Origin: Yponomeuta sedellus
Lineage: Eukaryota > Arthropoda > Insecta > Lepidoptera > Yponomeutidae
Direction: 5' to 3'
DNA length: 64,000 nucleotides
NCBI GenBank assembly: GCA_934045075.1
Contig: OW203722.1
Location: forward strand, 3,007,001 to 3,071,000
Both the position numbers and the translations under genes were made by a program. Below the pieces are notes generated by a model. The model worked only from the letters and a program-made list of their open reading frames with translations. It did not search any database and was not told the DNA's origin. Below, one piece after another: positions 6,414 through 63,161 of the stretch (its first letter is position 1; the number at the start of each line of letters is the position of its first letter).

Positions 6414-7621
6414 GATTAAAATAAAAATAGTGTAATCATGTGGGTACAGTGATATCGTTCCGATGTTAAACCTAACTGCAAAGTAGGTAGTCGGGGCTGT
6501 AAGTAATGCAATTTGTTTAAGTCAGATGTCGCTGCCTGTACGTAATACAGAGAATATTGTAAAGAGGTTCGAAATTTCACTGATGCCGTGAGTCGCCCAT
6601 TGGCTCAATTGGTAGAGCGCTGGTACGGATAGCCAGAGGTTGCGGGTTCGAATCCCGGCATGGGTGAAATTTTTAGCCTCTAAATAGGTTTTTTAAATTT
6701 GTTCCTTAGCACGGGTTAGTGCATTAAAAATAAAAATAGTGTAATCATGTGGGTACAGTGATATCGTTCCGATGTTAAACCTAACTGCAAAGTAGGTAGT
6801 CGGGGCTGTAAGTAATGCAATTTGCTTAAGTCAGATGTCGCTGCCTGTACGTAATACAGAGAATATTGTAAAGAGGTTCGAAATTTCACTGATGCCGTGA
6901 GTCGCCCATTGGCTCAATTGGTAGAGCGCTGGTACGGATAGCCAGAGGTTGCGGGTTCGAATCCCGGCATGGGTGAAATTTTTAGCCTCTAAATAGGTTT
7001 TTAAATTTGTTCCTTAGCACGGGTTAGTGCATTAAAAATAAAAATAGTGTAATCATGTGGGTACAGTGATATCGTTCCGATGTTAAACCTAACTGCAAAG
7101 TAGGTAGTCGGGGCTGTAAGTAATGCAATTTGCTTAAGTCAGATGTCGCTGCCTGTACGTAATACAGAGAATATTGTAAAGAGGTTCGAAATTTCACTGA
7201 TGCCGTGAGTCGCCCATTGGCTCAATTGGTAGAGCGCTGGTACGGATAGCCAGAGGTTGCGGGTTCGAATCCCGGCATGGGTGAAATTTTTAGCCTCTAA
7301 ATAGGTTTTTAAATTTGTTCCTTAGCACGGGTTAGTGCATTAAAAATAAAAATAGTGTAATCATGTGGGTACAGTGATATCGTTCCGATGTTAAACCTAA
7401 CTGCAAAGTAGGTAGTCGGGGCTGTAAGTAATGCAATTTGCTTAAGTCAGATGTCGCTGCCTGTACGTAATACAGAGAATATTGTAAAGAGGTTCGAAAT
7501 TTCACTGATGCCGTGAGTCGCCCATTGGCTCAATTGGTAGAGCGCTGGTACGGATAGCCAGAGGTTGCGGGTTCGAATCCCGGCATGGGTGAAATTTTTA
7601 GCCTCTAAATAGGTTTTTAAA
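6414..7621. repeat. Four-unit tandem array of a 308-bp repeat with a tRNA-like module
   Basis: Four nearly identical head-to-tail units. The landmark GTCGCCCATTGGCTC starts at 6592, 6901, 7209 and 7517, giving periods of 309, 308 and 308. Each unit has an AT-rich start (GTGCATTAAAAATAAAAATA), a unique middle, then a tRNA-like stretch with A-box-like GGCTCAATTGGTAGAGC, an anticodon-like stem-loop and B-box-like GGGTTCGAATCCC, then CCTCTAAATAGGTTTTTAAA. CGCCCAT pairs with ATGGGTG as an acceptor stem. The anticodon loop has C at the usual U33 site, so a working tRNA is unlikely. The same family is scattered through the whole window. Confidence 0.93.
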
Positions 7622-7641
7622 TTAATATTTAAATTTTTGGA

Positions 7642-15800: not shown

Positions 15801-18800
15801 GATTTTCAAATAGCACCTTCACACCAAAAGAGAAATAGCTTATTTATATTATTTTTATATATATTATTGCTGTAGTAGATAACAACATTTATACAACACT
15901 TAGAATAAAATTGATTTAGCAATTGATTACTCATCCATATTAAAATGTACTTTTAGTTAGGTATTATTCGAGATGGTCAATAATGCCTCCTGTTGAATAA
16001 AGATGACATACTTATTAAAATAATAACAAGACTGTCTATTGTTATTCTGTTGTTCGTCAATAAGAACGCGGCGAAATTTATGTTTAAAAGAGATTGTTGT
16101 CATTAATTGGCGCAAAGGTCTAGGTTAATCGTTCCATATTTTTGTGGCTGCATATTTAAAGCCACTCCTACAACCTGTCGTTCTGTCCTTTGGTTATAAC
16201 ATAACATTTACATACAAGCACATACATTGCTTCTGGCCCCACACTAGGATACCCTGTGTCGTGGGAACCAGAAACAACGACATCACAAACATGTAAACAT
16301 CCAAGACCTGGGCTTTTCATTTTGTCCCCAGCCGGGATTCGAACTCCGGACCTCTTGCATGGTAGGTAGACGCGCTACCGCTACGCCACAGAGGTCGTCG
16401 AATATATAAAGAGATAAACTTATATATTACGTGTGAACTATACATATTGAAGCCGTTTTCCCGTGTAGTTTTCTACAGTCGCTATTTTCAAGGCCCAACC
16501 CTTGCTCTCATAGCTCTGTTACTTTCGCTCGTGCAGGCTTCTCCACGGGCATATTCTTCCTGCACGAGATGCCTGACGTAAACCTGATCCATACGCTGAA
16601 CATCTCGGAGCACCGCATCAGCAGCGTCGCCGTCTCGCCGCCCGGCGACTGGATAGCCTTCGGCTGCCCCAACATCGGGCAGCTGCTGGTCTGGGAGTGG
16701 CAGAGTGAGTTTACTTGTAATCCGACCGCGATCAGAGTGGCATGGCATGGAACATCTATTTAAAGATGATATAGTATATTTCATTACAAGTGCGGAAAGG
16801 CTGTCATTGCAAAGTGTTCCGACAAAATAATGTCTACAGTCGGAACAAGTTGCAATGACGGTTCCGCACGTGTACTGAACGACTACTTTTAATACAGTTG
16901 CGAAAAAAATAAGCAATCTAATAAAGAAAAAATATTTGGAAAATGGCGCCAACCGTAAAAGAATATAAGCAGAGATTTTTTTTTTCACCCATTCTGGTAG
17001 GCAAAGGGTACTATGCCCATACAGCCAAGTCTTCAGTAGATTTTTTTTATTGATATGAACTAAAAATGAAATTATTAATTATTAATAAAGTAATGAAACA
17101 AATTAGTAGCTTCTTTTTAGAAATATACGTATTTACATGAATCATAAAAACTTCTATGATTTTTTTAGTAAAAACTTTTTGGTTGGTTTTTTTTAATATA
17201 CATTATTTTGACAGTTAGCATAACATAACATTTTACATACTGGCACATACATTGCTTCTGGCCCCACACTAGGGTTGGGAAAGAGAACGCACGAGTGCGG
17301 GAAAGGTAAAAAAAGCACGAGTATGTAATAGCCCACATCCCGAACGCTATACGTCCCTGCAATACGCCACTTTTTGAGCAACTGTATTAAAAAGACTATT
17401 TATTTAATGCCACATAGTAATTTGTACAGGAAAAGGATTAGGATTAAAGACGAACGAAGAAGCCGCTATTAGGCCTTTGACACAGCTTAAAGACTGCCAC
17501 CTCAACAACATCACATCTCTATAATTTAAGAATACAGTGTAAAGCAATGTAAAAGGTTTCTTCTTCTGCCAAATAATTTCATTTCATTACAAGACAGCCG
17601 GCACCAGCGCCTGATCGTGCCTTGCGAAGCACGGAAACGCTCGGAAAAAATGCCACTAGCGGTAATCACTGGACGGTCACGAAGTGATTGATTCCTGATT
17701 CCAATCACTCAGTTCGACTAGGTCACTAGCGCTTCCACTGTGGATGTTACAACAAAGTTATACCGTCTGCATTGCAGGCGAGCGAAGCGCTCGTGGCCTA
17801 GTCGAACCGAGTGATTGGGATCAATCACTTGTCAAATTGTCCTTAGCACGGGTCAGTGCATTAAAAAATATCTATCACTTGGTTAAGCAACAACAGGCGC
17901 GGTCAGGTGCGGCATGGGTGACCGTTCCGCGACTACCGCTAGTGACATTTTTTCCGAGCGCTTTCGTGCTTCGCAAGGCACGTTAAGCCGTTGGTTGTCA
18001 TGTAATGGCAGTCGTTAAGCCAAGTCAGAGGCCTTACGGGCGGCTTGATAACTTCGGACAGTAAGACCTACCGCCGTCTTACAATCCGCCACCAACCCGG
18101 ACTTGGCCTCCGTGGTGGAGTATGACCTAACCTTCCTGCGATGCAGGTAGAGGCCCGTGCCCCAGCAGTGGGGACATACAGGGGTTGATACCTATACCTA
18201 TTCCAGGCGAGCAGTACGTGATGAAGCAGCAAGGCCACTCGCTCGACATGACTTGCCTCGCATACTCGCCCGACGGACTCTACATAGTGACAGGGGGTCA
18301 CGATGGCAAGGTCAAAGTGTGGAACACATCGAGCGGCTTCTGCTTCGTCACCTTCACGGAGCACAAGTCTGCGGTCACCAGTGTCGTGTTTAGTGCCAAC
18401 AAGAAGTTCTTCGTGTCCGCTTCGCTGGATGGGACCGTGCGGTGCTATGATTTGACTCGGTGAGTTCTTAGCGTGAAGATACACATCTCTTCGTGGTACA
18501 GACTATTTATTCTTACTTTTCCAATGTAGTAAACAAGATTCTAACCTTAAAATTGAGATTGGATGCCTAAACTAGACATTTTTTCGCAAATTCATGAACT
18601 ATCATGAACTATGTTTATAAAATTCGCAGCGTGTTATCTAAAAGAGTGTTCAAAGTTACTTCATTTAAGGAAATATGGCAGTTTCGGACTAAAAAGTCAC
18701 AGTTTGAGGGTAGAATCTTGTTTACTAAATTGGACAAGTAAGAATAAATAGACTGTAGTTTGTAGAACGCTGGTCTCATAATATACTTTAGACACTGAAC

Positions 18801-21800
18801 GCCTTGTAATGGTGCAAACCTCATTTTTTATATTTCTTTTTCTATCTAACATTATCAAATATTTAAATTATAAAAACCTATTTAGAGGCTAAAAATTCCA
18901 CCCATGCCGGGATTCGAACCCGCGACCTCTGGCTATCCGTGCCAGCGCTCTTTCCAACTGAGCTAATGGGCGACTCACCGGCATCAGTGAAAGGATGATG
19001 GGCACAAATGTATGGAACCTGGTCCTGGCACCAATCGGAATGAGTAATACGTCGTTGGAAAGGTATTTTTTTGTAGAATAAGAATAATCGAAGCGCTAGT
19101 CCCGATTTTCTGTCCAATTTGAGTAATCATACGTTAAAAGTTTTTTTTTATTTAATTTTTTTTCTGTTGTTTTAATTCTTTTTGATATTTTTTCGACATT
19201 GTATATCGATTTTAATTACAAATGATCAGCATTGATTATTATATTATCATTGTTTGTTTATTATCGAAGTAAATAAAACAAGTTCAGAGTAAGTTTTATC
19301 GTTTAATGTGTTTCATCCATGATAATGTTATTTAAAAATAGTGCTGGTTCAGTAAAGCCTTCATGTCTAGCATATCCTAAATACCACACAATAGATATAA
19401 TATGCGCACAGGAACCTATCGTGCGGCGTCCTGTCAAACATGTGCAATAATGTTGTAATATGTTTCTACTATTTCTGTCTAATAATATATAGCAAAAATA
19501 TTGTTTTGATCGTACATGTCGGGACTGTATGCGTGCACGCAACAGCCACGCATCTTCGTGGATCCCATATTCATGGATATCCTCCAAAGCAGCTTCTCTA
19601 TAAGTTTCTATAAGATATAAGCCGTTGTTGAGGTGCTCGCTGCAATATGATTTTGCCAGTTTTAACTGATATGTCCCCAATGACAGCAAAATCACGTCCT
19701 GTTCCCTCAATCGTGGAAAGTCTTGAATGTCATTTGCTTCCAATCTCTGGAAATTGGCTTTTCTGTTGTTTAATCTTTTTGCTTCTACATAATCATATAA
19801 AACGTTTGGGGTTTGCCTTCTTTCAACAATTTTTTGTAAAAAAGCTTCTGCGTGTTGGCCATCGACAATAGGCCTGTGGAAGTGATTTGTAATTGCTGCT
19901 GCAATCATAAAATCCCCGAACATATTAGGCATTGTGTTATTAAAATATTTTTGGCGCAACAGCTTGAAATCTCTTTTGAAACGCCCGTTAACCACTTCCA
20001 CTACCCATCGGCACATTGTCACCAGCCGGGAATCATTTGCTTGAGAAGTCGTGAGCTGCGACTCTTCCCGGTTCTTCGTCGGGGGGACGTGAAATTCGTA
20101 GCCACATGCTTCTATATGCTGCAGACTATCCCTGAACCCGCGGTCCAAAATAAATACGTCATTCGGCTGAAGCAATATATGAAGGGGATTTTCCTCGTCA
20201 GTCATTAAGTCGCTCATTATCTGCGCATCAGTTTTTGTTGCAGCGTATGGTCCTTTAACATCTATAATGTATCCGTCAGTGGTTACGATTAAAAATGGTT
20301 TCAACAAGTTTTGGAACTTGTGTAAACTGTAGGATTGCCTCTGAAACAAAAAGTTTGAACTCTTGTATATATAAATATACGTACCATCGCAAATAATAAT
20401 GGCTTTATTGTTGTCTTCATTTCCATACAGTGCTTTTGGAATCCTCAAGTTTCTCTCCAATATATCTTCTCTATTCATGTGATCCACTCCCAAGTGTCGC
20501 ACAACGTAGTCAGTGCTAAGACACTCTCGTGCGATGGCCAACTGGCGTTCGAGTTTTCTCCGAGACATGTTAAACAACGTCGCAAGTCTCGCGTTGGGTT
20601 CTCCTGTGCGTAGTTTCGTTAGTAAAATGCCCAAAGTGGTTCTGGGATCTGCACTTCTATTTCTTAATAATGGATTTTGCTCTAAGATGGCATTAAATTC
20701 ATCATTAGTACGTCCAGTCCAAAAGTGCATTTCTTCTTCATTCATGCCTCGGTCGCTAAAATGTAATCTGGGTGAGTTTAAGGCATTTCGCATTAGGTCA
20801 CAAACATCCCTGAAGTGGGCAGCCGTAAAGTCATGGGAAATGTTGCAATGTTGGGGCAAATCATCCCAATCATTCCCATTAAGGTGATCGTGACATACTC
20901 TGGCACTGTCGGGGATATACAATTTATGTTGAGAAAATACGTGGATTTTAACAACATTTGGAATTCGATGGCGGGTTTCATTAGCGCAGCCATGAAAGAT
21001 ACAATGCGTCGCGGTATTAGGTGCTCTCATATATTCAGGAATATGAAGCATTTCTTCTAATTGCGGTTGTAGTTGTTCTTGCGGTTGTAGTTGTTCTTGC
21101 GGTTCTGCTTGTTCTTGCGGCTCCGGCTCGGGTTGAGGGTTTGCATGACCTCTAGTCGCATTTTCGGCTCTTTGCCAGCATCGGTAACATACTCTTCGGG
21201 TGTTGTCAAACACGACCTGAAAATGATATATGAAAATGTAAGGAAAAGAAAAACAACTTTGGTTTCCGAAAAATACCTAACAAAATAACGCATTGGGGGT
21301 CATTTGTGGGAGGGATTTGTTTTTCTGTCAGAAGGTGTGCGAATCGTCAAATATATGCCACAGATTCACAGATTTCTCAGAGATCTGGTTGCGGTTTTCT
21401 GTAGTTGTGTGTACGAAAACAAGGCATACACACAACCACACAAAACCGCAACCACAGTAATTGGTTGTGGTTTTGTGTAGGCCTTGTTTTGGTGGTAAAT
21501 ACATCGTGGAAGACGTAAAAGTGAAAAAGGAATCACTTGAATGTTCTTTAAGCGACCAGAATCACTTATCAATCGGTTTTCACTTTTACGTCTTCGTTAC
21601 CTCATTTACTACTAGAATAGATCTGGGATGCAGTTGCACATGATTTCAATTGGTTTCCTTTTATATCGAAGGTTCAGTGAGGATCGAGTGGAAAAAAAAA
21701 GTGCAATAGGTACAAACCTCCAGAGCAGCGTTTTCTCGTATAAATGTTACTAGCTCCACGTGTGTTCTTGTCAAGGCTTCCGACAGAACGCGTACTTGAT

Positions 21801-24800
21801 ATCTGCCTCGGTATAGCCCTCTTCGGCACATTACACAGTTACGGTAACGTTCCATTGCAACGAAACAATCCAATCGTTAAGCACCCAAGTCCAATATAAA
21901 GCCACGGTCAACAAATAAAACGGGTAACAGAGTCCAAAATGATGCCAAGGTCAAAGTCGATGTGAACAATGAGGAGCGTAATAACGTAGCACTTAACACA
22001 ATATCAGCAAACGACTGACTACCTGCGCAAGCGGCCAAGCGTTCCTCACCCTAACATACCTGCCCCCGCGCCGTGTCCCGGAGCGCGAGAGGGGTCAAAA
22101 CCGAATTCCAGCGTTACCCGTGACCGTGAGTGGGAGAGAGAGCGCAATGTCGCTGTCTCGCTCTAATGATTTATGACAGAGTATGCATAGATGTGATTTT
22201 CGTAAAAATCATGAGCATCGGTTGAGTTAAACCAGAGATATGAATTTTTCTAATTTCTATTTAGAGCAAAAAATGGTACTTTCCGACGAGCATATTTCAA
22301 AATGGACAATTCATACGGATTCGTCTTCATAGAATTTATTTTTTCACTTGAAAAGAGCTATCAAACGACATATGACTCATCTTGATTGGACATAAGGACC
22401 AAAACGCCCATCACCTTTCGAACCTCTTTACAATATTCTCTGTATTACGTACAGGCAGCGACATCTGACTGAAGTAATTTGCATCACTTGCAGCCCCGAG
22501 TACCTACTTTGCAGTTAGGTTTTACATCGGAATGATATCGCTGTACCCACAAGATTATATTTTTTTTAATGCACTAACCCGTGCTAAGGACAATTTAAAA
22601 ACCTATTTAAAAATTCTAAAAATTCCACATTCTAAATAGGTTTTTAAATTGTCCTTAGCACGGGTTAGTGCATTAAAAAAATAATATAATATTTAAATTA
22701 TGTCACACATTGCGAAATTTCCCTCACTTTACATCTTGACTAGAATAGAATAGAATAAATTTATTTGCTAAAGCATGGTAATTACATATCATGTAGGTGG
22801 TAACTTAATATTATGGTACAAGCATGCTCTACCCGTCAGGGTATTAAAATATGACTATTTTACCTGCTTATCCGATTTTGTCCAATTTTCTGTTTTTATT
22901 TTAAATATAAACTAAATAAAACAGTAGAAATAAACCACAAAGTTAAAGTCGTTCGAGTTTTATTATTAATTAAAAGATATACAACCTTAGAGCCTTAGAA
23001 AACAAAAATATTCATTTGTATAATATGTCAGTATCAAAACCAAGATAACGGGGGTTAGAAGGTGGCATTGATTCAATTTATAAATATCTGAGGTGTTCAG
23101 CGTCTCAAGTTCTCAATACCTTGAAATCTTCAATGCATAGTCGGTTCGTTTATTAAATCTATACTTTCTCTCTCTGAGAGGAAACTTGAGTGTCTGAGGT
23201 GTTCAAAATCCTTTAGCGCTTGAACATGCTAATCCGCGTTGGGCACACGTGGAAATTAAGCCCATACTTTCTCTCTCTCACTGAAAGAGTATAAACGTCC
23301 CACTGCAGGGTACAGGCCTATCCTGCCGCAACTACGTTTATACTACAACAAAAAATGAGGATAGTTAGGTAAAGAACACTGTATTGCATAACCAAAAAAA
23401 TATTACATGTATAATTTCTTAAATGTATGTATGTTATTTGCCAATTCATTGGCAGTCAAATCGCTCAGAGGGGTCTCTTCCAAACTACCTTTTGATGGAG
23501 TGGATTGCAGGAAGAATATATTCAGTCGGTATGTACGTGTCTTATTCTGATGGTGACGCTTTATCCTTACGTTTCAGGTACCGTAACTTCCGCACACTGA
23601 CGTCACCGAGTCTAGTGCAGTTCGGGAGCGCCGCTCTGGACTCCAGCAGCGAGCTGTGCGCCGCCGGCGGTCAAGACGTGTTCGATATATTCCTCTGGTC
23701 CGTTAAGTTCGGGAAGCTTCTAGACGTGAGTGTGCCACCATTCCATACTATATGACTAAGATGAATGGGCTATCCGTGCTGAAGGATAATACCCGAAATT
23801 CTGAGACTAATACCAAGAAACTAAGGGCGCCTGCCAACAAACTTTTAAAAACTGTGTTTGCACGGATTTTACTCGTTGAATTTCGCCTTTTTACAATTTT
23901 GCGACGTTACGGCACTTTTTGAAGTACCGCGGTCTCGGAAGACTGAGGTGACAGGCGTCTTTTTGAAATCATTAACTGTTAGTTTACAACCCTCGGCAAA
24001 AATTACAAAAGAAATCCTGAAGATACATTCCAAAATAGGCAAACCAATTAATTATTATTTTATATAAAATCAACAATATTGACAAATTTTTATGCAATTT
24101 GGCAGAAACAACTTCTATATTTCTCTGTGTTTTTGTTTGAATAGACATCCTCAATCAATCATCAATCAATAGACCGGAAATTCATTTTAAAACTCTTCCG
24201 ACAGTTATCATGTTCGCATAATTATCTCAAAGAACGATGGGTAATTCTGAGTGGATCCTGTACCCACCCTGGTACCTTATAGATTACGTGTTACATAAAA
24301 AAGGTTTTAAAAATTAACGCTACGAACGAACGAATGAATTAAAGAATGAATGTATGAAAGAATGATATAAGATAACATTTTTATTGAGATTATTAAACAA
24401 CAATCAGTATAACATTATGTAGGTACGTATAAGCTATTATTTTATTACAATGAACGAATGAATCAATGAATTAGAAATTAGAATGAAGTTATGATCAATT
24501 TTAGCGCGAATTCACGAAAGAAAAATTACGAGGGTACCCCCAAAATTTTTGTAATTTTACAGGTACTAGGCGGTCATGAGGCTCCCGTAGTATCTCTCTC
24601 ATTCAGTCCATCCCCTGGCAGTTCCCGTCTCGTCTCCGCCAGTTGGGACAAGACGGTCCGAATGTGGAACTGTATGGAGACTAGCGCCGAGAGCGAACCT
24701 ATACAACTGACATCGGATGCTTTACAAGCTGTGTTTAGACCTGACGGGGAAGAAGTGAGTGTATTCTTTCTCTTTTAGTCCGTCCCCAGGCAGTTATCCT

Positions 24801-36800: not shown

Positions 36801-39800
36801 TTTCAACCGCCTATGGGCTATTGTTGTTTTGTGCAAATATATCGATTAATGGGGAAATAGAGGAGCTGCCCACCTGTTCATTCAGCATTGTAAACAACCT
36901 ATCCCTAGATAATTTGGAAATTTCCAGCTGTTCAAGTATAGACAATCTCAACCCCTTACTGCAGGTGTGTAAAATTTCCAAATTATGGTTATTATTAAGT
37001 ACATGACCCGTATCCAAAAGGTGTTTGGCAAAATGAGATTTATCCGGATGATTGTTTCGGAAAGCCGCCACATGCTCCCTATACCGAGTTATAAAACTCC
37101 TACCGGTCTGGCCAATATACACTCCATTACATTCCGGACAAGCAACTCTATACACCCCAGACCGCTGGAATCTATCCACCCTCTCTTTTTGATTGCACAG
37201 ATTTCTAGCCAAAGAGTTGCTCGTCCTGAACGCAACCCGTATCCCAGATCTTTTTAACGTCCGGTGGATTTTTTCAGAAATTGGACCTACATAGGTAATA
37301 CTTGACTTCATTTTTTGAGGCCTTTCAGGTGGCACTGCGTATAAAAGCCTACTAACCATACCGTTCCGCTTCCTGACCACCAGCCTATCAATCATTCGCC
37401 TGCTATATCCGTTTGCAACTGCTATTTGATAGATGGTATTTAGTTCCTTGTTGTAATTAGCAGAAGACATTGGCACAGTTAGCAAACGGTGAATATAGCA
37501 ATGGAATGCTGCCATTTTGTGTTGCCACGGATGACAAGACGTTATTGGGATAACAGTGTCAGTCTGTGTTGGCTTTCGGTAAATCTGAAACTCATGCTTG
37601 TTACCCACCCTAGTTCTTTTTAGATCTAGGAAATTAAGCGATTCGTTCTGTTCTTTCTCTAGTTTGAAATTGATTTTAGGGTGTTTTGTGTTCAAGGTAT
37701 TGACAAATGAGTCTAGTTGTCTAAATGTACCTGTCCAGCATATAATGATGTCATCTACATACCGGTAATAATAAAGTATGTTTCTCTTCCCAACTATATG
37801 ATTACGTTCAAAATTATCCATGAAAATATCAGCTAGCAAAGGACTCAATGGTGAACCCATTGCTAAGCCTTCCTTTTGTTGGTAAAATGCACCATCAAAC
37901 ATGAAATAATTTTGACGCACGCATACTGTTGTTAATTCCAATAATTATAATTTTTCCCCTGGATGAAGACGTTGCATGTCCATGAAGTCTGAAATGAACT
38001 GAAGACATTCATTTCAGACTTCATGGACATGCAACGTCTTCATCCAGAAAAATTAATAAAGGCTTATATTATATATTGTTGTAACGCATATAGTCTTTTC
38101 CCTTTTGTTATTTTACCTAATATTTATTTTCCATAACCACACATGGCATAAGTTGCAGTTTCGGTTTTTAGAGCGAATGCTCTAAAAACCGAAACTGGAA
38201 CAACAAAAAATATAGGTGTTCGGAACACATCCGATCATAGATTTAGCTGATTATTTTGTATAGTGTTGGCAAGACTGTTTCCGTTATCCATATTTGGTAC
38301 TTTGCTGTGTCTATAACACGTTAGAATAAAAGCTGTGAATATAATTCATTCCGGCCTTTTTACTTATGTTTTCCCTAATATTGTGTGAAACATAAGTTTG
38401 GTCCTTCGTAAAGAAATTAAAACCAGTGCGAACAGTTCGTCATAAGTGTATCCATATTACACAACCTTAACCTTGCTTGGACAAGCACTGCTGTCAGGAG
38501 CGAAAAAGCTTACCTATTCTACTTTCCGCTTTGTTCTGTGCTATACGGAATTCTTCGAGTGTGTAAGCCTTCGCAGGACAACCAGATTCGTGCAAAAGCC
38601 AGCTGCAGTCCTTGAAAGGACAGTGCTTTGTCATCGCGAGCATTCAGATATTTGCGGCTGGGAGGGTCTCCAGATCTACAGTGATTGAAGAAAACAATTG
38701 CGCCATCATAATCAAGCGATAAAGTCTAACATCCATTGTTCATCGTGATCGAAGTTGCTGCATTTCTTCTACGACAAGGTACATAATTACGTAACATAAC
38801 CTAAAAGAAATTTTACAACTCATCAACATCAGTGTCGTCAAATACGTGTGCCGCAATACATGTCATCACGTCCGTTATGCTTAAGTTGGCACTCTGCTAA
38901 TTACAACGTTATCTATCATGCGGGCACAGCGGGTATTGGAACGCACCTGACTGCAAGATTTTGACCAATCAGTGCCGCGAAGCGAGTGCGCAGAGTGACG
39001 AAGTTATCCGACAACAACCGGAAGATACCGATCGACGACACAGGATTTCACGGGAATTAACGCATCGCCTGACGCCTCGCCATATTGTTTTCCGCCATTG
39101 TAATTGATTTGCACAATATAATTATAGTTTTTGCAAAAATTAATGCATAATTAGAAAATTTTACGCTCAATAGTGTATAATCACAATTTAAAGCTAATTA
39201 AGCTGTTATTTAAGTTGGAGGTTACTGGTAAGGAGTGATTTGTTGCATCAAATAGGTCAAATCAAACTGTTCTTTTCTATAGCGCGATAGGTATACCTAT
39301 TTTGTTTGCTTTCGTAATCTCGTTTGTTTCTGCAGCCTAGCTCAAAATGTCGCTAACTCGGTTAGTAAGTGACCGAGGTTACGTTAAGGGGTGTCTCACT
39401 CGTATGGAAACGTTCTGTGCGTCGGAAGATATAGAAAAGGCAAGCTATGAGGCTCTTTTAGCAAAACGTCAACGAATCTTCGATTCCTTTCGAGACTATG
39501 AGACCCTCAACAAGGAAATTCTATTCCTTAACGCCGCTGACCAGGAAGATTACGAGGAGTATGAACGTAAGTACTCAAATTGTTTGACGTTGTTAGATTG
39601 TGCTATAGGCAAACTAAAAAAGGAACAAAACACTTCATCTCCTGATTGCTCCAAAAATGGATTTAAAAAGTTACCACCGATCGATATTAAACCGTTCGAC
39701 GGTAAAAACATAGAAGATTTTATTCCTTTTATAAACATCTTCAAAGCTGTCTTTCATTCAGACTCCAATATAAGTCCTTGTCAAAAACTTTACTACTTAC

Positions 39801-42800
39801 GTACCTATTTACACGGCGAGGCGCTTGACATCATAAAAAATTTGCCATTGACTGATGATAACTATTTATCAGCTCTTGAGTTGTTAGAAAAACGCTATAA
39901 TAACATTCCCATGATAGTAAATCACCATGTAAACAGCTTGCTTGACTTGCCGACTTTCACAAAGTGTACTGCGCAGAATCTTCGCTCTCTTGTATCTAAA
40001 GTAAATCAGCACACTGCGGCTCTTAAAAACCTAGACTTACCTGTGGGGCAGTGGGATGCAATCTTAGTAAATATTTTGTCTCGCAAGGTTGATGGCTATA
40101 CAAACAGGGGGTTTCACTTGGAACGAAATGAGAAAAAATTACCAGGGTTATCAGAGTTCCTTGAATTTATAGAAAAGCGTGCTGTTGCAATGGAGAATAC
40201 TGCCAGCGAGAAGCCGTCACCGGCGCCGCCGGCTCCAGCAAAACTTGTGAAGTCTGGCAAGGCCAGCTTAGTATCGGCCATGAACCAGCTGTCATGTAAG
40301 TACTGCGACCAATCACATAAGCTTTATGAGTGTGCCCAATTTAAACTGCTGACAGTTCAAGGCAGGTGTGAATTTGTAAAAAGCAGGAAATTGTGTGTCT
40401 TGTGCATGAATCAGCATCAGGGAAAATGTATGCTCCGCTTAAAATGCAATATCTGTCGCAAGAAGCATAACACGCTTATTCACACTGACGCTGAGTCAGA
40501 CTCTGATACAAATGTAAGTAATGCTGCTACAAGCTCAGCTGGTGCTACTTCTGACAATGCTGTGGTGATGACTAACACTTCGCAAGAGAGAGATGTTTTG
40601 CTGCCTACTGTGGTGGTAAGGTTAATAAACAAAAATGGGAAATTTATTTATGCCCGTGCCTTGTTAGACAGCGGGAGCCAAGTGTCATTTGTTACACAAA
40701 AACTTGCTGAAAAAATTAACTGTAATATTTCCAAGGCTGATAAGACTATTACAGGCATAATAGATGGCACCAATAGTGTCACACAAAAGACTGAGTTTGA
40801 TGTGTATTCCACGGTGAATGATTTTAATTTAAAAGTGACATGCTTTGTTGCTAAAAATATTACGTGCAACTTACCTCAACAGTCGTTAGATGTAACAAAA
40901 CTGGACATTCCCTCATATGTCATGTTAGCTGACAAAACATTCCATCAAACGGGTGAGATAAACATGCTTTTAGGCTGCGAAATATTCTTCCAGGTGCTTC
41001 AGAGGGAGACCCTACCGCTGACACTGACTGGGCCCTACCTGGTGAATACTAAGTTCGGGTATGTTGTGGCGGGGAGTCTGCCAGTATCTGCTGGCGCAGT
41101 TTCTACGTCTAACCTATGCATAACTGTCAGAGGTAACCCATTTCATAATAAAAATAATACACACATCAGTGGCGAAAAATGTAATTATTTGCAGCAGAAT
41201 AAGTCTTCCCTTGATACACAAAATCAGTCTTCTCTTTTGCTTGACAAACAGACTCAATTCACCTTCGAAGAACAAATTGATCACACCATTTCACAACTGT
41301 GGGAGTGTGAGAAAGTACCAAATATCTACAAGGAGGGCACAACCGAGCATCATCTTGCGGAAGAAAGTTTTATAAACTCTGTCAAGCTGGAAAACAAAAA
41401 GTTTTCTGTAGCTTTACCATTAAAGCTTCAGCTGGATGATGTTAATTTGGGCGACTCATTTGGTAGAGTTTTGCAAAGGTTCTATAATCTTGAAAAACGT
41501 TTTTCCAAGGATAATAAGTTGTATGAAAACTATAAAGCTTTCATGCATGATTATGTTAGTCAGGGTCACGCAAAAATATATGATATATCTAATTATGATA
41601 TCAATGCAGGAAATATTTATTTCATTCCGCACCACCCGGTGTTAAACCCTAATAGTAAGACTACACCGGTCCGCGCTGTTTTTGACGCGAGTATGAAAAC
41701 AACAAATAATTTATGTTTAAATGACATCATGCTTAATGGTCCCACTGTGCAAAATGATCTTTTTGACATTCTAACTTTATTCAGAACATTCCAATATGTG
41801 CTACTTTGCGATGTCAAGGCTATGTATCGTGGGATTCTGGTAGATAATGACTATCGCTGTTTACAAAACATTCTTTGGCGAGATTCCCCTACGCAACCTG
41901 TTCAATGTCTACAATTGCAAACTGTCACCTATGGTCTAAAAAGTTCTGCGTTTCTAGCCACCCGCTGCCTAATTGAACTGGCTGATAGGTATAAAGATGA
42001 GTACCCACTAGCTTCGTTTGTCTTAAAAAACACAAGTTATGTTGATGATATCCAGTGCGGTAGCAATAACTTGCTAGAGCTTGCAGAAACAAAAAGGCAA
42101 CTGATAGAGCTTATGGATAAAGCTAGTTTTTCCCTACACAAATGGTGTTCGAATTGCAGTGAACTTTTAAGTGATATTCCTGAATCTATTCATCAGTTAA
42201 GCAGTAAAAGTTTTGACAAAGTAAATAATACTTACATAAAGACTCTAGGACTTTCCTATGATGTACATACTGATACTTTGAATATGAAATGTCCAGTAAC
42301 TGAAAAACAAGAAAGCTTCACTAAGAGAGAAATGCTAAGTTTTATTAGTAAGTTCTTTGACCCTTTAGGCCTAGTAGGACCTGTTTTGGTTCAGGCAAAA
42401 TATTTGATGCAACAAGTTTGGTTTGAAAATTTAAAATGGGATGATGTGTTACCAGAATACCTTAATACCAAAATGGTTGACTTTACTCATAATTTGATAG
42501 ACATGTGTTATATTTCTGTACCGAGAAATATTAATGTACCATCGCCTGTCAAAATGGAACTGGTTGGGTATGCTGATGCCTCAAATATTGCTCATGGCTG
42601 TTGTTTGTATTTGAGAGTAGTTAGCCATGACAATCAAGTGAATGTCAATCTTTTATGTTCAAAGTCCCGTATCAATCCAAAGGACAAAATTCTCACCACA
42701 CCCAGACTCGAACTAAATAGTGCTGTGTTATTGGCTATGTTAGCCAGAAAAGTATATAACACTTTGTCACTTAAATATGACAATATCAATACAGTTTTGT

Positions 42801-45800
42801 ACTCAGATTCAAAAATAGTTTTGTCTTGGCTAAATACAGAACCAGTAAAACTCACTGTTTATATTGCCAACAGAGTGGAGAAAATTAGGCAGCTTTGTGA
42901 TAATTTTCAGTGGAGTTATGTAAACACAAATGAAAACCCAGCCGACTGTCTGTCGCGTGGCGTAGAACCTCACGAACTTAAAGGGAATTCTTTGTGGTTT
43001 CATGGTCCTCAATATTTACAAAATATAAATTATGTACATTGTGCGCTAGAAAGTACAAAACCAATAGATTTTGAACTTCCTGAACTCAAAAAACCTTCAC
43101 CTGCGTCCTATGTATGTAGTAAGGTAAATAATCACTTTCAAGATTTCATTGAAAAATATTCAGATGTAGAAAAAATTACTAGAATATTAACTTATATAAA
43201 ACGATTTTTGTTTAATTGTAAAAAACAAAATGTAACCAAGAAAAAAGGTACTCTGTGCCCAGAAGAGTTAACTTCTGCACTAAATGAATTGATCAAACTT
43301 GAACAAAGGAAGCATTTTGAAAAGGAATTTAAATTTGCTGAGTTTAAAACAAATGAAAAATCAAATTTAAGTAATTTAAATCCGTTCGTTGATGGTTTTG
43401 GTCTCTTAAGAGTGGGTGGTAGATTGCAAAATGCAAATCTCACATTCGATCAAAAACACCCTATTATATTGCCCAAAGGTTCAACCTTGACCAAATTATT
43501 AATTATTCATGAACATATTAGACTCAAACATGCGGGACAAAAGTTAACTCTGAGTAGTCTACATGAAAGATACTGGTTGATTAATGCTAACAGAGAAGTC
43601 AAGTCAGTTTTACATAAGTGCGTGCTATGTTTCAGGTTAAAGGCAAAGAATGCGAGTCAACTTATGGGTTCTCTTCCCCTTGATAGAGTCAATATGACAC
43701 GGCCATTTCAAATTGTTGGCACTGACTATGCCGGTCCCTTCAGCGTGAAGCAAACTAGAATTAGGAAACCTGTAATAACTAAAGCCTACGTCGTTATGTT
43801 TATTTGTTTTCTTACAAAAGCCATTCATATTGAATTAGCCTCCGATATGACAACCAATACCTTTTTGGGCTGCTTAAAACGGTTTATCAGTCGCAGAAAT
43901 AAACCTACTAAAATATATTGTGACAATGCTAGTTACTATAGAGGCGCCAATAGCGTACTGAACGAATTGTATGAGTCACTGAATTCCACAGAGCACCAAA
44001 ATGAAGTAATAAATTTCAGTAATTCAGAAAGAATTTCTTTTCATTTCATACCGTCTTACTCACCTGTTTTTGGTGGCTTGTGGGAAGCAGGGATCAAGAG
44101 TATCAAATATCACATAAAACGTGTGATAGGTAACCTTGTACTTACCTATGAGGAAATGTACACGGTTTTAGTTCAGATTGAGAGTATTTTGAACTCTCGA
44201 CCACTTACCCCTATATCTAGAGACTCAGATGACATGACGTACCTCACACCCGGGCATTTCCTCACAGGTGCGCCATTGACTTCATATCCGGAATTAAACT
44301 TAACTGATATTAATATTGGAAAACTTAGCTTCTGGAAACAATGTACTAAACTACAACAAACCTTTTGGATCCAATGGCACAAGCAATACTTAACAATGCT
44401 GCAGAGCAGACCTAAATGGCATACCGCCCAGCCTAATCTGCAGGAAGGTACTATGGTACTAATTAAGTCTGATAATGTTACTCCTCTTCAGTGGCAAGTA
44501 GGTAGAATTGTAAAGGTGATACCAGGCAACGACGATTTAGTTCGCGCGCTTGATGTAAAGACTCCTAAAGGGTTTGTCATTAGGACTAGTGTAATGAAAG
44601 TTTGTCCACTCCCTATTGATTATAACTAGTTTGTATAATTACTACTTTGTTTTGGGCCGACTCTTACTTAGTGTAAGCTAAATAATTTAAACTATAAGTG
44701 AACTAAAGTTAATTAAAATTTTAAACTTAAGTTATGTGTAACCTAAATACCTAGTCTTTAATAAGAACAATATGTATACCAATTTAAGCAATAAAAAAAA
44801 TTACTTACCTATGTTCAATTTGCTATTTTTGCTTTTCAATTAGGTATTTTCTTAGTGAAACCATGTTGTTACTTTTCATTTTGGTTTCAGCAGTTACTGA
44901 AAAGACATGTTATTTGTTTTCTTTTATAGGTATTAAGTTTATAAGTGAAAATAGGTCTTAACGTTTTGGCTGAGGCCCGAGCATGTTCGGAACACATCCG
45001 ATCATAGATTTAGCTGATTATTTTGTATAGTGTTGGCAAGACTGTTTCCGTTATCCATATTTGGTACTTTGCTGTGTCTATAACACGTTAGAATAAAAGC
45101 TGTGAATATAATTCATTCCGGCCTTTTTACTTATGTTTTCCCTAATATTGTGTGAAACAATAGGTACGATGTAGCGCGTAGCGAGCATGTTAGGTTCAAC
45201 ATGTAAGACCAAAAAAATAAAACCGACTTCAAATGCGTGAACACAAAAAAAAACTAATAATTAAAAAATAATTCCTAATATCTATTACCTAATACTATAA
45301 TTTTCCTAAACTATGTCAAAGTAATTAAAGTTAAACCAGCTATATATCTTACAATAGTTATACTTATATACCTATTGCTTTTTGGAGTCGGTGCCAGCCG
45401 TATTAAGTTTAGCCGCGAACAAGAGACGTGCGGCGCGGTGGCGGGGGACGCAAGGCGCGAGGCGGGGCCGCGCGGTGCTGCGGGGGACGCGGGATATTTA
45501 GCTGGTTTAACTTTAATTACTTTGACATAGTTTAGGAAAATTATAGTATTAGGTAATAGATATTAGGAATTATTTTTTAATTTTTAGTTTTTTTTGTGTT
45601 CACGCATTTGAAGTCGGTCTTATTTTTTTTTAAAAGTTAGTTTATTTTATTTTAAATATTTTAGTGTTACTTTTTTGTAGATACCCTTAGTGCATTTAAT
45701 ATGGGTAGGCCTACTAAACGCGCAGCTCTAATGAGACAGCGCCGTTCGGAGGAAACAAAAGAAGAAAGGGAAGTGCGTTTAAAAGAAAGTAGAGAAAGAA

Positions 45801-60910: not shown

Positions 60911-61252
60911 ATGCTATTATTATTTCTATTGAAAACTTGACTTGAATATTCCTAACATTAGAACAAACATAATACCTATTCACATCATTCACTCTCAGCG
61001 TTGACATAGTAAAGTTACAGAATTCGGTCTGAAAGCTTTTCTAATGAACAGCTACCTGTTCAATGGAATTATTATCTATTCAATGGAATTGTTAAGATGG
61101 TTCCGAAACAGAAATTCTCAAGAGAGTATCTACCTACCTACAATGATATTAGTGTTGACACTCTCAGTAAAGTTGTACTAGTGTCAAAACTAGGTATTTT
61201 CATAAGTTAGCAGAAGTTATAAGTTGAGCAATTTTGAAACAATGATAGTGGA

Positions 61253-63161
61253 GGGCAAACGTCCTTGCACCACCCTTGCAAACGGGCACCTGCGCGAAGT
61301 CGGCCCCGACCTAGCTGAATGCCAGTATGGCTTTCGCTGGGGTCGCTCGACCATCGACGCCATCCAACGCGTGAGGGACCTGTCGGACGAGGCAACCGGG
61401 GCGGGCGGGATAATGCTAGCGGTGTCCCTGGACATAGCCAACGCCTTCAACTCTCTGCCCTTCGGGTGCATACGGGAGGCGCTCCGATTCCATGCAGTGC
61501 CCGACTACCTGCGGCGCATGATCGGAGACTACCTGAAGGACAGAGAGGTTGTGTACCAGGGACGAGACGGCGGCATGCATCGCCGACTCATGAGATGCGG
61601 TGTTCCACAGGGATCGGTCCTAGGACCGCTCCTGTGGAACATCGGATACGACTGGGTCCTACGTGGTGCGCTGCTGCGCGGGTTGCACCTCGTCTGCTAT
61701 GCAGACGACACCCTCGTCACGGCGCGGGGGCGCAACTTCGAGGAGGCGGCCCGTCTGGCCACGGTGGGAGCCACCCACGTGGTCGGGCGTATTGAAGCGC
61801 TAGGCCTCAAGGTGGCCTTAAGCAAAACCGAGGCGATCTGCTTCCTCGGCCGTCGAAGAGCGCCTCCTGCAGGTTCCGTGGTGAGGGTGGGTGATGTCCA
61901 CGTCGAGGTCAGGTCCCATTTGAAATACTTGGGCCTGGTCCTTGACAGCCGGTGGAACTTCGAGGAGCACTTCAGACGTCTGGCGCCGAAACTTATCGGC
62001 ACAGTGTCTGCCCTCGGAAGGCTCCTTCCGAACACTGGTGGACCCGACGTGACCTGCCGCCGCCTTTATACCGGCGTTGTGAGGTCGATGGCGCTGTATG
62101 GTGCACCTGTCTGGGCGGACGCTCTGAACGCCCGTAATATCGCTCAGCTGCACCGACCACAGCGAGTGATGGCGATCAAAGCGATACGCGGATACCGGAC
62201 GGTGTCACACGAGGCGGCATGCGCTCTGGCTGGCACGGTGCCATGGGACCTCGATGCCCACTTGCTGGCGTCGGTGTACTGGCGGCGCGTGGATGCACGC
62301 CACCGAGGTGTCTTCCCACCACCCGAGGTGGAGCAGCAGTGGAGGAGGGATGCACGTCGCAATCTCCTGTGCCAATGGCAAAGGCGGCTCCAGGAGCCGA
62401 AGGCGGGCCTGCGGACCGTGGAGGCGGTTCGTCCTCTTCTAAAGAAGTGGGTGGACCGTCGACACGGCTCGCTCACCTTCCGGCTGGTGCAGATCCTCAC
62501 AGGACACGGGTGTTTCGGGAGGTATCTGTGCCGCATAGCCGGAAGAGAGACGACTGCGGCGTGTCATCACTGCAATAGTGATGAAGACACGTCGCAGCAC
62601 ACCCTGGAGGTCTGCCCGGCTTGGGCGCAGGAGAGAGCGACGCTGCAACAGGCGGTAGGCTGCAACATCTCGTTGCCAGCCCTAATAGGCGCAATGCTAC
62701 AGGGAGAGTCCTCGTGGCAGGCAGTGGTGTCCTTCTGCGAAAACGTCATTTTGCGGAAGGAGGCGGCGGAGAGGCTGAGAGAAGACGACCCTTCGTCTCA
62801 GCCGATCCGTCGCAGGAGGACGGGACGGAGAAGGAGAGCGTATGCTCACCTCCTTCCGGCCCCGTGAGGAAATAGCGGATTGGGGTATCCGGCCTCACGA
62901 AGCGGAGCGGAGTGCTACGTGTTTCTAGCATTCCGCTCATACCTGGAGGATAATGGGCAATGGAGGGGTCCACCAGGACTGACGCTGGCGGAGTTGCGGA
63001 AGATTGCGAGGGCGTTCCCGCGACTCCGTCGTACGGCGTGAGAAGGAACACCATGGGGTTTTAGCCGGTAAGAGTCCGGCATAACCCTGTCGCCATCCCC
63101 AGCGACAGGGTATCCATGAGGATTTCCCCATGAAAAAAAAAAAAAAGGGCAAACGTCCTTG
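61253..63161 (+). mobile_element. R1-clade LINE, 5'-truncated, with 15-bp target duplication
   Basis: The element is 61268-63146, ending in a 14-nt poly-A. GGGCAAACGTCCTTG occurs at 61253-61267 and again at 63147-63161. The 3'UTR has GGAACACC, GGGGTTTTAGCCGGTA and GAGTCCGGCATAACC, as in the retroposon at 7657-8411. The 5' two-thirds (ORF1, endonuclease, first RT motifs) are absent, as expected of incomplete reverse transcription. Confidence 0.93.
61268..62867 (+). pseudogene. R1-clade ORF2, C-terminal part (RT and zinc knuckle)
   Basis: Open for about 530 codons to the stop at 62867. QYGFRWGRSTIDAIQRV, VSLDIANAFNSLPFGCI (RT motif A, D), GVPQGSVLGPLLWNI, CYADDTLV (motif C, YADD near 61699-61710), HLKYLGLVLD and a thumb region are followed by the R1-type C-terminus with HGCFGRYLCRIAGRETTAAC and HHCNSDEDTSQHTLEVCPAW. 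The first about 14 codons of the open frame upstream of 61268 are host sequence, so the frame has no true start. No internal stop is present, indicating a fairly recent insertion. Confidence 0.92.

Follow-up and report, generated by a model that had tools for sequence, protein, structure and literature searches.

How a DDE transposase can insert its element without duplicating the target is an open mechanistic question, for which Spy offers the published eukaryotic case. Here we consider a locus in the lepidopteran Yponomeuta sedellus (contig OW203722.1, positions 3,007,001 to 3,071,000 of the forward strand), a stretch of 64,000 nucleotides to which we refer as the window and whose numbering is used throughout. 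A sequence-only reading of this window had proposed a Spy element at 18993-22415 with the inward-reading ends GGATGATGGGC and GGTGATGGGC, a left flank terminating in GTGAAA and a right flank starting TTTCG, and all of these assignments were borne out on the sequence. Our analysis leaves very little doubt that the element is an autonomous DNA transposon of the Spy group, in the PHIS superfamily, that inserts at AAA|TTT with zero duplication and whose examined copies fit a recent single burst. It belongs to the already published Spy type and is ordinary in kind; what is added here is a two-exon gene model, the anatomy of the presumed zinc ligands, a target rule refined to a bounded A3T3 and copies whose pattern fits a single burst.

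Insertion site and target rule

The window copy has a length of 3423 base pairs (bp) and carries its gene on the minus strand. Its left terminal inverted repeat, GGATGATGGGC, occupies 18993-19003 on the plus strand, and the right one, at 22406-22415 on the minus strand, comprises 10 bp, 1 base below the 11 bp found in the other 39 copies scored in the genome. Within the window TGATGGGC occurs at both ends of the element and nowhere else, and a degenerate inverted repeat is also recovered when the 200 bp at one end are aligned with those at the other (score 75, against a mean of 34.6 and a maximum of 61 in shuffles, none of 500 reaching the observed value). The element is bordered by the target halves AAA at 18990-18992 and TTT at 22416-22418.

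When the two flanks are joined, they find ten matches elsewhere in the window, all of them spanning the junction and none with bases gained or missing there. The 24 bases around the junction are identical in seven of these empty sites, the junction word is AAATTT in eight and AAACTT in two, and a single site has a 2-bp gap that lies 3 bases off the junction. As the empty sites close cleanly, the insertion brought the element only and duplicated nothing, and the surrounding repeat does provide the pre-insertion reference that had been claimed for it. This repeat carries a tRNA-Ser-like gene, and the 308-bp tandem-repeat family of the window is the Spy target both here and for several other copies. 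A tandem array at 6418-7623 contains 3.9 copies of a 308-bp unit with 99% matches and tRNA-Ser(GGA)-like genes, and the repeat is also scattered through the window.

A search of the species' own genome (657.5 Mb in 57 contigs) yielded 373 candidates at first look, of which 40 were scored and all 40 analyzed. Every one is a near-identical full-length copy, the window copy (L001) included, so that the family comprises at least 40 nearly identical members. The usual element is 3424 bp long (36 copies, with two of 3423, one of 3425 and one of 3427 bp) and has perfect 11-bp inverted ends. Both ends are perfect in 37 copies, the exceptions being L022 and L038, with an altered left end, and L001, whose right end is 1 base short. 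As evidenced by the flanks, a direct duplication of 1-12 bp is found in none of the 40 copies, and the AAA|TTT context recurs: the left flank is AAA in 38 cases and TAA in two, the right flank TTT in 39 and TTA in one, and the central AA|TT is kept at all 40 sites. The claim of insertion between AAA and TTT without duplication, and with it the proposed check on the flanks of other copies, thus holds both at the empty sites of the window and among the scored copies of the genome, where duplications of 2-3 bp are likewise seen in 0 of 40. Note that one particular site of one repeat family was used by four of the 40 insertions, of which three point one way and the fourth the other, and that another single site is common to two further insertions.

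Empty counterparts were also obtained for other copies. The joined flanks of 11 of the 40 find a junction-spanning match in the window or among the flanks of other copies, 265 matches in total, although those of L006 and L010 are too poor to count. For the three best, L012, L015 and L025, the empty counterparts are 100% identical across the junction. A gap lies within 8 bp of the junction in 54 of the 265 matches, and the six of these that were inspected resemble alignment slips in diverged repeats.

The target rule extends to the bases just outside the hexamer. An A at position -4 occurs in two of the 40 copies and a T at position +4 in one, so that both are avoided in comparison with a background drawn from this window alone, where 74 AAATTT words are preceded by A in 21 cases and followed by T in 19 (pooled binomial P = 5e-8 for such depletion). 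The preferred target is an exactly bounded A3T3, and this bounding hints that the target may be recognized by its DNA shape. It may already be visible in published Spy target logos; for cgSpy of Colletes gigas in human cells, AAWTT is reported at about 60% of sites (PMC11304231). Self-avoidance of AAATTT by the element was considered and dropped: the word is absent from the element (mean of 4.4 in shuffles, 3 of 500 at zero), but 36 of 303 window stretches of equal length contain none either.

Transposase gene and motifs

The predicted transposase has 683 residues and is encoded in two exons on the minus strand. Exon 1 (21855-21718) comprises 46 codons and bears the first CxxC motif, a predicted GT..AG intron of 501 bp follows at 21217-21717, and exon 2 (21216-19303), an open reading frame (ORF) that includes the stop codon, matches Pfam DDE_Tnp_4 at 6e-15. 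The 689 residues given earlier were not reproduced with this splice model, while the intact DDE transposase was, the predicted frame being uninterrupted over both exons and the triad present. Exon 1 is further suggested by a homologous N-terminal stretch in the Colias protein P0010 (41% over 41 residues, E-value 6e-6 against 360 proteins). There is one other donor, which would yield a slightly shorter product, and the GT donor and the 501-bp spacing are retained in all 30 copies checked.

A signature of the acceptor is found in related proteins. If a CAG acceptor is read through, a glutamine is expected at position -10 before the second CxxC, and among those of the 120 listed relatives that contain the second CxxC with 10 or more residues ahead of it, it stands exactly there in 24 of 30 contig ORFs versus 1 of 22 named, mostly modelled proteins. 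Under a relaxed criterion that accepts any Q in the last 13 residues if V, I or L comes next, the counts are 28 of 30 and 8 of 22. Many of the contig ORFs start in a short F/L-rich stretch just ahead of that glutamine, like a translated polypyrimidine tract. The intron position appears to be common to many relatives, where the intron would split the CxxC/CxxC finger, but it need not be universal, since the contig protein P0079 crosses the whole N-terminal finger unbroken. Within the intron strong DNA hairpins are found at 21386-21595 (z-score -8.0, none of 200 shuffles as stable), and their inverted stretch recurs in other copies.

The spliced protein contains three motifs with presumed zinc ligands. 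The intron-split N-terminal CxxC...CxxC finger comprises residues 7-59 (21178-21837, minus strand, as are all positions given for the protein), and a C2CH module of the form C-x4-C-x30-C-x2-H, with THAP-like spacing, spans residues 118-157 (20884-21003), its ligands being conserved in 98, 100, 100 and 100 of 100 aligned proteins. A SWIM motif, CxC..CxH, lies at residues 637-651 (19402-19446) with ligands in 99 of the 100. The catalytic residues D323 (20386-20388), D404 (20143-20145) and E453 (19996-19998) are invariant in all 100. Pfam matches to SWIM are weak and below the cut-off in three of ten relatives scanned, and THAP is without a Pfam match in the exon 2 protein and ten relatives; the C2CH module scores an E-value of just 0.0067 against a THAP profile, with one of 100 column shuffles as high, so that it may still be a diverged THAP. 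A ZAD (zf-AD) domain is not proposed, as its matches were weak (two of ten relatives, E-values of 1 and 3.8).

Exon 2 has no sequence match in the PDB, the profile produced two chance-level matches (E-values 1.4 and 2.4), and single-sequence AlphaFold2 returned a useless model with a predicted local distance difference test score of 35. THAP, ZAD and SWIM structures are absent from the listed PDB matches, which cover mainly residues 284-483, an absence that excludes nothing. As for a companion gene, the element contains no further sense ORF of at least 80 residues, and its three other ORFs of that size, which were not searched against families, all lie antisense inside exon 2. Among the papers listed in literature searches, titles and abstract openings point to none that treats SWIM motifs or introns of Spy, and the main text of PMC11304231 mentions neither SWIM nor a zinc finger nor an intron.

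Relatives and classification

The protein search returned 248 matches, and the named organisms among the best 120 of these, Colias, Euphydryas, Melitaea, Maniola, Cydia, Spodoptera, Bombyx, Parnassius and others, are, as we take them to be, all Lepidoptera. The relatives by themselves thus point to a host that is probably lepidopteran. No relative was confirmed in viral contigs or in bacterial or archaeal genome contigs. For comparison, ISL2EU-like and PIF/Harbinger-like sets were gathered with bait sequences, the best 120 of each being listed; the ISL2EU-like proteins contain DDE_Tnp_4 and, in most cases, THAP. Of the 360 proteins 337 had a usable DDE stretch, and these were reduced to 157 non-redundant ones and then to at most 40 per group, giving 98 rows with the window transposase. 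The careful tree comprised 78 rows, after removal of two PIF rows with long branches and a reduction of PIF to 20. Here 41 Spy-like rows, including the window transposase, group with supports of 98/99, the 20 PIF/Harbinger rows with 100/99 and 17 ISL2EU-like rows with 78/62. The useful outcome of the tree, which had been proposed as a check, is that on the sequences compared the window transposase falls in neither of the other two groups, and being outside both PIF/Harbinger and ISL2EU-like clades it is filed as Spy. The family profile matches ISL2EU-like proteins at 2e-15 and PIF/Harbinger at 6e-5, so that the former are nearer, a ranking in line with the sister relation of Spy and ISL2EU given in the text of PMC11304231.

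The likeness to published Spy elements of Lepidoptera and other invertebrates, as far as their descriptions go, comprises the AAA|TTT target, the lack of duplication, one DDE transposase of about 700 residues and short inverted ends (PMC4482050; PMC11304231), and the element length lies inside the published range of 1165-5910 bp. PMC11304231 lists 182 elements from 172 species and describes the gene as a solitary ORF, in contrast to the predicted intron and the three zinc-ligand motifs found here. The cgSpy element, compared by its description in the same paper, shares zero duplication but has inverted ends of 467 bp, where the present element has 11 bp and a degenerate stretch. PIF/Harbinger elements share the DDE_Tnp_4 superfamily but are described as having a TWA duplication and a Myb/SANT gene (PMC4482050), neither of which is seen here.

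That the element is instead an ISL2EU member, with an A|AT|T target and a 2-bp duplication that was lost or misread, seems very improbable to us. By profile, ISL2EU-like proteins lie closer than the other comparison group (2e-15), ISL2EU ends usually start with GG, its THAP finger is similar in spacing to the C2CH module present here, and Repbase places Spy under ISL2EU according to PMC12730594. These resemblances are outweighed by the insertions themselves, with a direct duplication in none of 40 copies and empty sites that close without extra bases, and by a transposase that has no Pfam THAP match in exon 2 or ten relatives and that the tree keeps apart from the ISL2EU-like group; of the AT duplication, the YqaJ-domain second gene and the canonical THAP described for ISL2EU (PMC4482050), none is seen here. 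A chance pairing of inverted ends with a transposase pseudogene in a repeat break has a practically negligible probability, as the same two ends occur in 40 genomic copies and are perfect over 11 bp in 37 of them.

Burst, mechanism and meaning

The 40 copies carry the mark of a common and recent origin. Their alignment has 131 variable columns; a copy has on average 3.25 private changes (range 0-6), two variants only are shared, each of them between two copies, and pairwise divergence averages 0.19% with a maximum of 0.29%, bearing out the description of the element as young. Variable sites amount to 3.7% in coding and 3.7% in noncoding sequence, and the 75 coding substitutions (52 nonsynonymous, 4 stop and 19 synonymous) give a ratio of nonsynonymous plus stop to synonymous changes that is 0.99 of the neutral expectation. 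The whole two-exon frame is intact in 36 copies. In L005, L021, L025 and L029 it is broken. One copy, L002 in a set of 30, has no private change, where 1.6 such copies are expected under a simple star of that mean, and a source-like sequence is thus still present. The copies form a star, a pattern that fits one short recent burst from one source followed by neutral decay. Given a lepidopteran mutation rate of about 3e-9 per site and generation, the 3.25 changes in 3424 bp correspond to an age of about 3e5 generations, which is probably an underestimate because the scored copies, with a variance of 1.34 in private changes, seem to be the most similar ones.

Is the family active even now, or is it what a finished burst has left behind? 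We consider ongoing transposition unlikely. The full frame in 36 of 40 copies and the very low divergence would agree with ongoing activity, and a single genome would fail to show most new insertions if these are rare. Steady activity should however leave many unchanged copies in a set chosen by similarity, and there is one among 40 where a simple star predicts 1.6; in addition only two variants are shared and the coding changes are neutral. The suggestion that the element is perhaps active is thus not supported. The star-shaped, neutral divergence makes it less likely, as does the shortening of the right end in the window copy, and a finished burst is the reading we retain.

Several points weigh against our view of a Spy-group element with a strict target and a single burst. 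With only 40 of 373 candidates scored, there is probably a bias towards similar and intact copies with clean ends, and the private counts are under-dispersed (variance 1.34 versus mean 3.25). One outer base of the target deviates at three of the 40 sites. The rows of the tree include no named published Spy protein, and as each group was gathered by similarity to the query or a bait, part of its cohesion follows from the sampling. Support for the ISL2EU-like clade is weak (78/62), and the Spy-like clade sits on a long branch. Finally, Foldseek alone gave no PDB match at an E-value of 0.001 or better, the best being Mos1 at 1.6e-3.

Several other features were noted in the window. An exon with WD40 repeats, presumably resembling PWP2, lies upstream of the Spy insertion (18218-18463, plus strand). 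A BEL/Pao retrotransposon frame at 39341-44629 (plus strand) consists of a single ORF of 1762 residues with Pao peptidase, integrase and related domains. There are two further reverse-transcriptase ORFs, one of 377 residues at 36811-37944 (minus strand), with a C-terminus that we take to resemble the GIY-YIG stretch of Penelope-like elements, and one of 553 residues at 61206-62867 (plus strand), which we assume is probably a fragment of a retrotransposon without long terminal repeats.

For the Spy element, the gene, ends and insertion sites suggest the following course of events. The two-exon gene would, after splicing, give rise to a single DDE transposase that binds the GGATGATGGGC ends, the element would be excised by blunt double-strand cuts at these ends, and its two 3'-OH groups would attack phosphodiester bonds that lie directly across from each other at the centre of AAA|TTT, with zero stagger. 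Joining of this kind leaves no gap to fill and hence no target duplication; in the description of PMC11304231 blunt Spy ends are indeed inserted in a non-staggered manner. The N-terminal finger, the C2CH module and the SWIM motif may have roles in binding of end or target DNA or in assembly. It is conceivable, and we put it forward tentatively as somewhat doubtful, that in this Spy lineage the intron-split CxxC/CxxC finger, a C2CH module derived from THAP in an ancestor shared with ISL2EU, and the SWIM motif serve to read the bounded A3T3 by its DNA shape, and that the transposase joins both strands there with zero stagger.

The gene model may also bear on published assays. According to PMC11304231, the Spy clones of two lepidopterans, Hedya and Lymantria, and that of a wasp lacked activity in human cells, and short-ended Spy donor plasmids likewise failed. 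Annotation as one ORF drops exon 1, and as a guess this could be one reason for the inactivity of the two lepidopteran clones; the inactive clones are however given as about 700 residues in the same source, so exon 1 was perhaps included.

For the study of duplication-free insertion, the genome of Y. sedellus has several assets. It contains at least 40 insertions that hardly differ from each other, several of which have clean empty sites at paralogous positions. One copy is unchanged and resembles the source, and the gene model includes an exon that could easily be overlooked. The target rule, the burst and the zinc motifs thereby become directly testable.

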